A stretch of 64,000 nucleotides of DNA. Origin: Halolamina salifodinae. Lineage in GTDB: Archaea > Halobacteriota > Halobacteria > Halobacteriales > Haloferacaceae. Position 1 is the first letter of the stretch. Every line of letters starts with the position of its first letter. Position numbers and translations under genes: made by a program. Below, piece after piece: positions 4,514 to 50,773 of the stretch. The stretch spans positions 682,001-746,000 of the forward strand of contig NZ_JAGGLC010000001.1 of NCBI RefSeq assembly GCF_017874235.1, read 5' to 3'. The notes under the pieces were generated by a model. It had not been told where the DNA came from and did no database searches. It was given only the letters and a program-made list of their open reading frames with translations.

Positions 4514-4569
4514 GCGGGTTCTGGGATTTGGCAGGTAGTTTGAGAGGTTTTCAACGGTGGGCTACCGCC

Positions 4570-4974
4570 AACAGGACCGCGGAGTTCCCATGACCTCTGA
4601 GACCGCCGAGCGCCGGGCCTGAAGCCCGGTCACCAGAAATCTGCGATTTCTGGTTGGCAGACGAGAATCTCCGATTCTCGTCAACGTCGCAGGAAGGCGC
4701 CGCCTTCCTGCTGGCAAACGGGAGCTTCGCTCCCGTTAACGGCACAGCCCCGAGTCCCCACCCCTCCCCCCGCGCTCGCCGACCGCTGGCGAGCGCGAGG
4801 CGTCCACCGCATCCACACCGCGGTCGCGGTGGCGCGCGAAGCGCCCGCACCTCCGGATGCGGCGCGAGCGTGCGAGGGACGAGTGAGCGACTACCGGGAG
4901 CGAACGAGTCGGCTGGGGAGGCTGTGGTTGCGGCGCTGTGCGGTCCTCCGTGGTCATGCTTCGAGATGCTGTTG
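4570..4974 (+). repeat. Modular palindromic repeat element, copy A (intergenic)
   Basis: This 405-bp stretch fills most of the 554-bp gap between the acyl-CoA dehydrogenase and acetyltransferase genes. It holds a row of near-perfect hairpins: CCAGAAATC with GATTTCTGG (4633-4653), ACGAGAATC with GATTCTCGT (4661-4681), CAGGAAGGCG with CGCCTTCCTG (4690-4710), and AACGGGAGC with GCTCCCGTT (4717-4737). A C-rich block CCCCACCCCTCCCCCC and an AGCGAACGAGTCGG block follow. The same order recurs near 49.2 kb. The ends (AACAG...CATGACC at 4570-4594, and the reverse complement of AACAG...CATGACC near 4950-4974) form imperfect inverted repeats. Open frames across it look spurious. No transposase is present. 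Confidence 0.8.
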
Positions 4975-32692: not shown

Positions 32693-32834
32693 CGAGTGAA
32701 CAGCGCCCGCCGTCGGGCGGGTGCTCGGAGCCGACGCCGTGATCGTGTTGACCGACAACATACCGAGTGAACAGCGCCCGCCGTCGGGCGGGTGCTCGGA
32801 GCCGATGCCGTGATCGTGTTGACCGACAACACGG
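32693..32834. repeat. 71-bp direct repeat, two copies, each with two hairpins
   Basis: Two units start at 32693 and 32764. The first 68 bases of each differ at a single position (GACGCC versus GATGCC). Each unit contains a 10-bp stem AGCGCCCGCC with GGCGGGTGCT around a GTCG loop (32702-32725 in the first) and a smaller stem TGTTG with CAACA. Copy 1 also has CGATCACGGC just upstream that can pair with GCCGTGATCG inside it. The repeat fills most of the 348-bp truA-pepF gap; the rest holds only the pepF upstream region. It could be a small RNA, a protein-binding array or a local duplication. Confidence 0.8.
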
Positions 32835-47328: not shown

Positions 47329-47838
47329 ATGTTCGACACCATCGTCATCGCCACCGACGGCTCCGAGAGCGTCCAGCGGGCGGTCGACGTGGCGCTCGAC
47401 TTCGCCGACCGGTTCGACGGTCCCGAATCGCGTAGCGATTCGGTAGCCAACCAAAACGCTTCGCGTTCTGGTGACGCCGACGTCCACGCGCTGTTCGTCG
47501 TCGACGAGCGCGAGGTCGAGTCCTCGCCCGGGAGCGTCCGCGAGGAGCTCCGCGCCGCGCTGGAGAACGACGGCGAGGACGCCGTCGCCAGCGTCGCCGC
47601 GCGCGCCGAGAGCGCCGTCACGACCGCGGTCCGGGAGGGGCGCCCGGCCGCGACCATCTCCGACTACGCCCGCGAGGTCGACGCCGACGTGGTCGCCACC
47701 GGGACGCGCGGCCGTCACGGCGAGAACCGCTACCTGATCGGCGGCGTTGCCGAGAGCGTGGTGCGGCGCTGTCCGGTGCCGGTGCTGACAGTGCGACAGT
47801 TGGAGGGCGAGACGGACGGCGAAGAAGCGACGGCGTAG
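47329..47838 (+). CDS. Universal stress protein with an in-frame repeat insertion
   Basis: The 169-residue protein is a UspA-type fold (MFDTIVIATDGSESVQRAVDVALDFADRFD at the N-terminus; VVATGTRGRHGENRYLIGGVAESVVRR at the nucleotide-binding C-terminus). After FDG it carries a 19-residue insertion ending VANQNASRSGD, encoded by a 57-bp palindromic repeat (47419-47475). Removing it restores a normal RFDADVHALFVVD strand. The insertion lies in a surface loop between the first helix and the second strand, so the fold should tolerate it. The start at 47329 is the usual one. Confidence 0.92.
   Translation: MFDTIVIATDGSESVQRAVDVALDFADRFDGPESRSDSVANQNASRSGDADVHALFVVDEREVESSPGSVREELRAALENDGEDAVASVAARAESAVTTAVREGRPAATISDYAREVDADVVATGTRGRHGENRYLIGGVAESVVRRCPVPVLTVRQLEGETDGEEATA
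47419..47475 (-). repeat. 57-bp palindromic insertion inside the UspA gene
   Basis: Two hairpins make up this stretch: GAATCGC with GCGATTC around GTA (47425-47441), then a linker GGTAGCCAA, then CCAAAACGC with GCGTTCTGG around TTC (47451-47471). The hairpin-GCCAACC-hairpin arrangement and the following GGTGAC match, in reverse orientation, the repeat modules at 4633-4681, 49243-49291 and 50493-50541. GACG occurs on both sides at 57-bp spacing, a possible target duplication. Confidence 0.75.
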
Positions 47839-49131: not shown

Positions 49132-49181
49132 CTTTCCGGCGTCAACGGCTGCGCTCAGGACGGTTACCGCGACAGCGACGG

Positions 49182-49742
49182 CGACAGCATCTCGAAGCAT
49201 GACAACTGATACCCGCGATGTGCCGGGCACGAGAGCCGGTCATCAGAAATCTCCGATTTCTGATTGGCAGACGAGAGCCTGCGGCTCTCGTCAACGTCGC
49301 CGGACTACGTCCGGCTGGCGAACGGGAGCTTCGCTCCCGTTAACGGCACAGCACCGAGTCCCCACCCCTCCCCCCGCGCTCGCGACGTTCGCGAGCGCGA
49401 GGCGTCCACCGCTCCGCAACTTCGGTGGCGCGCAAGCGTCCGCGCCTCCGTGCGCGGACTGAGCGCGCGAGGATCCCGCGAGCGAAGCGAGTTGGACCAC
49501 GTGGGGGTGATACGAGAGGCGCGAAGCGCCTCTCGGCGACATGACGAGAGAGCTTCGCTCTCTCGAACCACTTGCTCCCACGGAGGACGAGTGAGCGAAC
49601 GAGTCGGCCGGGGAGGAAGCGAGGCGGGAAAAACGCGACCAGCGGGAGCGGCAAACCGCCTCGGTAGCGAGCGGCGACGCCGCGAGCGCTGTGGCAGCGG
49701 TACGAGGCTGTGCGGTCACAAGTGGTCATGCATCGAGACAGT
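49182..49742 (+). repeat. Modular palindromic repeat element, copy C (intergenic)
   Basis: About 560 bp of the 802-bp gap between the DHH gene and the small membrane-protein gene repeats the layout of copy A: TCAGAAATC with GATTTCTGA (49243-49263), ACGAGAGCC with GGCTCTCGT (49271-49291), GCCGGAC with GTCCGGC (49299-49315), AACGGGAGC with GCTCCCGTT (49321-49341), then the CCCCACCCCTCCCCCC block. Several stem bases differ from copy A in a pair-preserving way. Extra palindromes (GCGAGCGAAGCGAG, GGCGCGAAGCGCC, AGAGAGCTTCGCTCTC) follow. The ends at about 49189-49205 and 49722-49738 are imperfect inverted repeats of TCTCGAAGCATGACAAC. Open frames inside look spurious. Confidence 0.8.
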
Positions 49743-50281: not shown

Positions 50282-50773
50282 CTACTCCTCGGACCGACTC
50301 CCGACGACCCACTTCTCGGAGTACGACTCCCCGCAGGCACACTTCGCGTAGGCGTGAATCACGTCGCCGTCGGCGTACATGCCGCCCACTTCGGGGTTCT
50401 CGGCCTCCGCGAACGCGAAAATGTACTGGACTTCGTGGTCGTCGCCGTCGCCCGCGGGACACGACCCGCCAGCGAGGTCGGCGTCGACGCCACCAGAACG
50501 TTCCGCGTTCTGGTTGGCAGACGAGGGCCTTTGGCTCTCGTCGACGCTGCCGCCCTCGCCCATCGCCTCCTTGGCGAACTCCATCGCGTCCTGCCCGGTG
50601 CCGGCACTGAACAGTTTGCGTCCCTGCTCGCCCGGGCGCACCAGCACGATGCCGCCGTCGACTTCCTCGCCGGCGTCGGCCAGTTTCCCGCTCTCGTCCA
50701 ACTGATCCGCGGCGAGGAACAGCGCCACGTCCTCCAGGCGCTCACCCGCGAGGAACTCCGAACGTTTGCTCAT
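50282..50773 (-). CDS. Small haloarchaeal protein (DUF5807-like) with an in-frame repeat insertion
   Basis: The 163-residue protein begins MSKRSEFLAGERLEDVALFLAAD and contains VEGGIVLV-type and AMEFAKEAMG segments. A C-terminal part reads FAFAEAENPEVGGMYADGDVIHAYAKCACGESYSEKW. From memory this matches the haloarchaeal DUF5807 family. A 19-residue insertion (ESQRPSSANQNAERSGGVD) splits what would be GGSVDADLAGG. It is encoded by a 57-bp palindromic repeat flanked by an 8-bp direct repeat. Two Cys in KCACGESY may bind metal. Function is unknown. Confidence 0.8.
   Translation of the reverse strand: MSKRSEFLAGERLEDVALFLAADQLDESGKLADAGEEVDGGIVLVRPGEQGRKLFSAGTGQDAMEFAKEAMGEGGSVDESQRPSSANQNAERSGGVDADLAGGSCPAGDGDDHEVQYIFAFAEAENPEVGGMYADGDVIHAYAKCACGESYSEKWVVGSRSEE
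50483..50547 (+). repeat. 57-bp palindromic insertion with 8-bp flanking repeat, inside the DUF5807-like gene
   Basis: The core is CCAGAACG with CGTTCTGG (50493-50513), the linker TTGGCAG, and ACGAGGGCC with GGCTCTCGT (50521-50541, one G-T pair). GTCGACGC flanks it at 50483-50490 and 50540-50547, giving a 57-bp period and a likely target duplication. The module matches those in copies A and C and in the UspA gene. Confidence 0.8.

Follow-up and report, generated by a model that had tools for sequence, protein, structure and literature searches.

Rickettsia is the best-known case of in-frame palindromic inserts, and their persistence there is often ascribed to reductive evolution. Among described elements the nearest to the one reported here are the head-to-head dimers of CGTC-tagged REPs and the Rickettsia palindromic elements (RPE), and the nearest that we found in haloarchaea are the PATEs of Haloquadratum walsbyi. 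RPE are described as lying in frame in unrelated genes, each with a conserved peptide (PMC10969869, PMC3733652), and as bacterial elements of about 150 bp in ten families (PMC10969869). Compared by description, the element studied here also has many in-frame copies in unrelated genes and a predicted conserved peptide, but its inserts measure 45-114 bp and it is archaeal.

Di Nocera et al. (2013, PMC3733652) describe CGTC-tagged REPs as small stem-loops that bear a CGTC-like outer tag (CGTC or TGTC/CCTC) and are arranged mainly as head-to-head dimers with the tags outside. They are given as mostly intergenic and as present also in ORFs, where dimers or groups that encode 20-30 residues make up more than half; the same account knows of no dedicated transposase, lists CGTC repeats from 5 bacterial phyla, and "halo" is absent from its text. 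For families 1-4 it gives stems of 8-9 bp, loops of 4-5 nt and A-T as first and second pairs. Our element resembles these repeats in consisting of two opposed hairpins with the tags, where present, outside, while one must keep in mind that the model was seeded on such pairs. In contrast to families 1-4 as described, its stems are mostly 10 bp long, its loops are 3-nt GNA/TNC loops and the second pair of hairpin 1 is mostly C-G. As it fails this description of stem, loop and second pair, the element was not filed in the four CGTC families. It further differs from the CGTC-tagged REPs as described in that a single genome has about thirty genes with copies read in one common frame.

PATEs are portrayed as haloarchaeal and transposase-free, with near-terminal palindromes, no target duplication and terminal-only forms of 52 bp, and as relatives of IS605-type transposons with which they share ends (PMC3119063). 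The present element is likewise haloarchaeal and without target-site duplication (junction repeats of 1-9 bp in 29 genes). Unlike PATEs, it is absent from the ends of the Y1 loci that were searched, and in-frame genic insertion, as seen here, is not among the features given for PATEs in that description. A search of the open-access literature found no archaeal report of this element or of in-frame palindromic elements.

The window, i.e. the whole stretch of 64,000 nucleotides analysed from Halolamina salifodinae, carries one copy in the gene of a DUF5807 family protein, with the following features:

50282 to 50773, minus strand: host gene, DUF5807 family protein (PF19123), profile match with E 2.9e-44.
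50489 to 50545, minus strand: in-frame insert of 57 bp = 19 codons, VDESQRPSSANQNAERSGG, in the DUF5807 gene, from the alignment with six congeners without the insert.
50492 to 50514, plus strand: hairpin 1 of the DUF5807 copy, ACCAGAACG-ttccg-CGTTCTGGT, a perfect 9-bp inverted repeat with covariation over 29 copies.
50520 to 50542, plus strand: hairpin 2 of the DUF5807 copy, GACGAGGGCC-ttt-GGCTCTCGTC, with one G-T pair, from covariation over 29 copies and a pattern match.
50482 to 50490, plus strand: left copy of the junction repeat CGTCGACGC (9 bp), which contains GTCGACGC of the original prediction at 50483-50490.
50539 to 50547, plus strand: right copy of the junction repeat (9 bp), whose first bases also form the outer arm of hairpin 2.

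The original prediction, made from the letters of the DNA, had described two copies of GTCGACGC flanking a module at a spacing of 57 bp. Both were located on the plus strand, at 50483-50490 and 50540-50547, with this spacing, and the full direct repeat extends to 9 bp. The module was also said to be an in-frame insertion, and this holds: reading is not interrupted anywhere across the insert, and exactly the same 19 codons are absent from the DUF5807 gene in 6 out of 6 other Halolamina genomes compared (86-94% identity). The insert boundaries were set by codon phase and element ends and are ambiguous over the 9-bp repeat. Chance can be ruled out as the origin of the module. A pattern anchored on hairpin 2 occurs at 3 places in the window, the diverged UspA copy not included, versus a mean of 0.00 in 100 shuffles, and DNA folding of the insert segment gives a z of -4.36, with 0 out of 200 shuffles equally good. 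In 29 copies, which are related and not independent rows, 98.8% of the stem cells are paired and 44 two-sided changes occur versus 12.0 in shuffles; if the partner was slid, at most 6 were counted.

The DUF5807 module is one copy of a dispersed small palindromic repeat found at many unrelated sites. Its layout is GTC, a stem-loop, a TGGCN linker, a second stem-loop and GAC, with stems mostly of 10 bp and loops of 3 nt. The first stem pair is A-T in all 29 copies for hairpin 1 and G-C in 27 out of 29 for hairpin 2. A covariance model built from the 29 copies listed 132 matches in the H. salifodinae genome at a cut-off of E up to 1e-3, which were reduced to 100 places by dropping opposite-strand and partial hits by hand, some of these places adjoining or overlapping; 150 candidates were scored, and the value of 100 may be a lower bound. 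The double-hairpin repeat is present at about 100 places. The commonest geometry, 10 bp with a 3-nt loop, was found for hairpin 1 in 68 and for hairpin 2 in 44 of the 100 places, with 22 and 29 unparsed. The left tag reads CGTC in 56, GGTC in 17, CATC in 13, TGTC in 5 and CCTC in 2 places, and the right tag CGTT in 39, CGTC in 33 and TGTC in 14; CGTC stands on both sides in 18 out of 100. Matches to the model occur in 104 out of 119 genomes of the family (1e-6) and in 160 out of 194 sampled genomes of the class (1e-8), with a score of 91.8 bits both in the congener G050 and in Halolamina pelagica CGMCC 1.10329.

A second genic copy of the window lies in a universal stress protein gene:

47329 to 47838, plus strand: host gene, universal stress protein (PF00582), start set at the first ATG of the ORF.
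47419 to 47475, plus strand: in-frame insert of 57 bp in the universal stress protein gene (g14), with an empty site in three congeners.

This insert had been taken to be of the same kind as that of DUF5807, with shared orientation and frame, and the model agrees: it matches 47413-47481 on the minus strand, the canonical strand of the element, with 70.4 bits.

To classify the 100 places as genic, edge or intergenic, a codon-usage score trained on the 64-kb window was used, resulting in 40 intergenic, 29 gene-edge and 30 in-frame genic places and 1 frame change. If only the in-frame genic places are regarded, 27 out of 30 lie antisense to the gene in one frame (24 loci, as three tandem pairs are included) and 3 in sense. 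The bias in orientation alone has p 8e-6; for orientation and frame, measured against what stop-free frames would give, p is 2e-17, the places being treated as independent. The genome-wide tabulation thus extends the common orientation and frame, which the original prediction had noted for two genes. Both flanks are coding on one strand in 31 places, and only 1 of these has its flanks in different frames. Four inserts (g09, g14 (UspA), g15 and g28) count as edge by the codon score and as in-frame antisense by comparison with relatives. The sense in-frame copies include g29, g31 and, with a weak model score, g32. The insert g30 fits the model on either strand to about the same degree. In the used antisense frame the predicted peptide is ..ESxxxSSANQNAxRSGD..

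Altogether 32 host ORFs were counted, 27 of them with a Pfam family. The families comprise DHDPS, an Mrp-type antiporter subunit, an FtsJ-like methyltransferase, shikimate dehydrogenase, FAA hydrolase, phosphoglucomutase, two universal stress proteins, aldo/keto reductase, a DSBA-like protein, cupin, NIF3, M32 peptidase, a chorismate-binding enzyme, S9 peptidase, uracil-DNA glycosylase, GNAT, class V aminotransferase, QRPTase, an ABC transporter and DUF2797. One further host is an amino-acid-kinase family protein, whose best solved relatives are isopentenyl phosphate kinases.

The same bias is found in other genomes. Among the 70 best-scoring listed loci (12 from G002, 18 from G030 with L281 and L282 left out, and 40 from other genera; codon score trained on the H. 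salifodinae window) 12 are in-frame genic, and 12 out of 12 are antisense in the same frame. Random use of all frames and orientations, named beforehand as evidence against the original prediction, was therefore seen neither here (27/30) nor elsewhere (12/12). In 3 of the 70 loci both flanks are coding on one strand in different frames, with stop codons in all 3. A set of eight named-genome loci holds 11 places, among them 2 in-frame antisense (both Halolamina), 1 in-frame sense and 1 frame change. The in-frame sense copy outside Halolamina is that of Halarchaeum (L036), with low scores.

For the comparison with relatives a chimeric query of the joined flanks was used and then the corresponding stretches of one to three congeners per gene. 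Empty sites with a single copy of the flanking motif, as anticipated by the original prediction, were found, and they are clean in at least one congener for 28 out of 30 host genes compared (g20 and g25 lay outside this comparison; g03, g20 and g25 were left out of the junction and length measurement, leaving 29 genes). The remaining two, g03 (MnhD) and g23 (GNAT), were not counted as clean because unlike sequence stands at the same place. At the g03 site the MnhD-type orthologue of G002 (L154) contains tandem SEEPRSSER repeats in 27-bp units, hairpin-like in look, so that this site takes different short inserts in different genomes. In the GNAT orthologue of G086 (L206) a different short insert (SERSAAGSQQSATD) sits about where the g23 insert does. 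Two inserts are common to a congener, namely that of g02 (DHDPS) with G002 and that of g04 (FtsJ) with G050. The shared DHDPS insert has one loop that reads TTC in one genome and its reverse complement GAA in the other, and the FtsJ insert of G050 is 57 bp shorter. In the best alignment of DHDPS to a solved structure (2yxg), 19-residue gaps fall over the insert region.

Insert lengths in the 29 genes are 57 bp (17 genes), 108 (4), 51 (3), 54 (2), 114, 45 and 60, and those of g01, g04, g24, g28 and g29 consist of multiple units. A single tolerated size, which the original prediction had considered, does not agree with this range of 45 to 114 bp. As the lengths were measured in codon units they are multiples of three by construction, and the keeping of the frame rests on the ortholog comparison and the codon scoring.

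The typical junction, read in gene sense, is GNC/GTC ... GAC/GNC. The ends of the element coincide here with codon boundaries and agree with a GNC^GNC target. Since codon alignments gap only at codon boundaries and the ambiguity is 1-9 bp, the placement between codons is based on the ends that the copies have in common. In the flanks of the host genes GNC^GNC occurs 522 times between codons versus 82 and 25 times in the other phases, so that the target alone would put approximately 83% of insertions between codons. The junction repeats in the 29 genes measure 1 bp (6 genes), 2 (3), 3 (3), 4 (5), 5 (3), 6 (2), 7 (1), 8 (3) and 9 (3). The repeat of 8-9 bp at DUF5807 arises because the element end GTC with the stem GACGAG resembles the target GTCGAC; given the spread of lengths, the element end and its target overlap by chance in the 8-bp repeat, which is not a duplication of fixed length.

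A further hint towards the role of the frame arises from the properties of the six possible translations. Of the element's six reading frames, five are open in 79-83 of the 100 places and the sixth in 28, and stop avoidance alone therefore does not yield the bias (p 2e-17). The used frame has a mean GRAVY of -0.87 and a charge of -0.96, compared to -0.21 and +2.75 in the sense frame that shares its phase. Greater hydrophilicity is found in one other frame, which however is basic (GRAVY -1.37, charge +2.59), and greater acidity in another, which is less hydrophilic (charge -1.57, GRAVY -0.38); the used frame stands out only on hydrophilicity and acidity together, not on either alone. An avoidance of lysine-giving loops in genes was not significant (2:5 vs 6:5, p 0.37). 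Model lengths, which are noisy, are not multiples of three in 21 out of 69 edge or intergenic places and also in 2 out of 30 in-frame places, the latter being parts of one four-hairpin insert. In an already broken IS-like transposase gene of Haladaptatus DYF46 (Pfam match to DDE_Tnp_IS240 below the cut-off) two copies are present, one of which shifts the frame while the other lies in sense with a stop; this single locus supports selection. The element-bearing copies of this IS-like transposase lie at L033 1628-1938 (frame change and stop) and L037 5192-5504.

Frame and orientation are best explained by target preference together with purifying selection, where most likely the GNC^GNC target favors codon phase and selection sets the orientation and the absence of stops. 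The choice posed by the original prediction, a tolerated frame or targeted insertion, hence does not fall to one side, and both seem to contribute. Taking the observations as a whole, the element is probably a REP-dimer-like, non-autonomous mobile hairpin pair with a GNC^GNC target, whose genic copies are filtered by selection. It may spread as a single strand folded into hairpins with an enzyme supplied in trans, and could insert in either orientation, after which most genic copies would be removed by selection. The survivors would be those that keep the frame, are free of stops and are read mostly in the one clearly hydrophilic and net acidic frame, as a halophilic protein can presumably carry such a peptide in a putative loop; the target would by itself already put about five of six potential coding sites between codons. 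Unlikely in our opinion, while deserving the closest attention among the rivals, is that insertion itself is directional, the machinery reading the transcribed or replicating strand and the frame following from GNC^GNC. The strength of the orientation bias (27/30 here and 12/12 in other genomes) would fit this, as would the ends on codon boundaries also in the sense copies g29 and g31. The very existence of these sense copies and that of Halarchaeum speaks against it, as does the broken transposase with one sense copy containing a stop and a frame-shifting neighbour. Moreover, GNC^GNC alone leaves approximately 17% out of codon phase and 21 out of 69 edge or intergenic lengths are not divisible by three, whereas the inserts in host genes keep the frame.

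The hydrophilic and net acidic predicted peptide could also suggest that the inserts benefit the host proteins at high salt, as short loops rich in Ser, Asn and Asp that were retained or recruited for this reason, and the multi-unit inserts and the two shared ones point in the same direction. We regard this as improbable, since except for g02 and g04 no examined congener (1-3 per gene, with unlike sequence at g03 and g23) has the insert, the stems change on both sides together, and 40 out of 100 places lie between genes. An intron-like element excised from the mRNA, by an archaeal bulge-helix-bulge or by self-splicing, would make the coding frame irrelevant and would agree with a small structured unit in many genes; it is, however, hardly credible for inserts that keep the frame, lack stops and lie mostly in one orientation, none of which a removed intron would need. 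About as implausible is a transposable module that duplicates 8 bp of its target site. It would account for the 8-9 bp direct repeat flanking the DUF5807 copy, of which the original prediction had pointed out 8 bp, and is contradicted by the spread of 1-9 bp over the 29 genes. A MITE with terminal inverted repeats and a fixed target duplication was considered as well and rejected, the outer complementarity amounting only to GTC/GAC and a fixed duplication being missing.

The mobile hairpin pair acting as DNA agrees with the composition of the loops. GNA or TNC loops are found in 91 out of 137 perfect hairpins compared to 11 out of 72 control hairpins away from elements (p 6.6e-13, the copies not being independent), and the loop-closing pair is C-G in 134 out of 137. 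In hairpin 1 a loop triplet and its complement are about equally frequent (GGA 13, TCC 12; GAA 10, TTC 8), while the loops of hairpin 2 are asymmetric (GAA 12, TTC 3; GCA 8, TGC 3). A GNA or TNC loop closed by C-G forms C-GNA-G on one strand, which is an unusually stable DNA mini-hairpin. With loops that are mostly GNA or its complement, single-stranded DNA hairpins are pointed to.

Regarding a possible source of mobility, 2 out of 7 genomes of the genus gave no match to a Y1 transposase. The element was not found at the ends of Y1_Tnp loci (17 of the 19 fetched loci searched, the search being confined to loci with Y1_Tnp), and an IS200/IS605 parent sharing its ends was rejected on this ground. 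Four matches to the model lie in these 17 loci, three of them weak (12-14 bits). The strong one, with 33.5 bits, is a diverged element at L302 1725-1786, within a broken Y1 gene of G030.

More broadly, one may tentatively think of mobile DNA-hairpin pairs throughout haloarchaea that enter genes at GNC^GNC, a selfish repeat shaped for carriage inside proteins and a recurrent source of loops, although we hold this wider picture to be possible rather than probable. In such a selfish-repeat reading the target and the coding strand would make the element nearly harmless, as GNC^GNC falls mostly between codons in high-GC genes. With inserts in about thirty genes, a free-living archaeon whose close relatives lack nearly all of those examined provides a clean system for following mobile DNA into protein, the insertions falling in well-known enzyme families and nearly all having been compared with an empty counterpart. 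These insertions offer a testable case of target choice and codon structure lowering the harm of a mobile element, and the element points to an activity in archaea that acts on hairpins of single-stranded DNA. In the annotation of haloarchaeal proteins, some "insertions" may be this element.

Outside of genes, the window contains two further copies embedded in longer hairpin arrays:

4623 to 4691, plus strand: intergenic double hairpin (match with 9-nt flanks) within a longer hairpin array, 87.4 bits, flanks non-coding by codon score.
49233 to 49301, plus strand: intergenic double hairpin (match with 9-nt flanks) within a longer hairpin array, 84.9 bits, flanks non-coding by codon score.

The surrounding regions, 4560-4830 and 49169-49430, are longer intergenic composites of multiple tandem hairpins with the stems CCGGGC, ACCAGAAATC, GACGAG, GCAGGAAGGC, AACGGGAGC and CGCGCTCGC. 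Arrays resembling these composite repeats are present elsewhere in the genome, at L003, L004, L008, L019, L020 and L023. We further report a 68-bp repeat at 32693-32831 of the window, whose two copies are 99% identical and start 71 bp apart.
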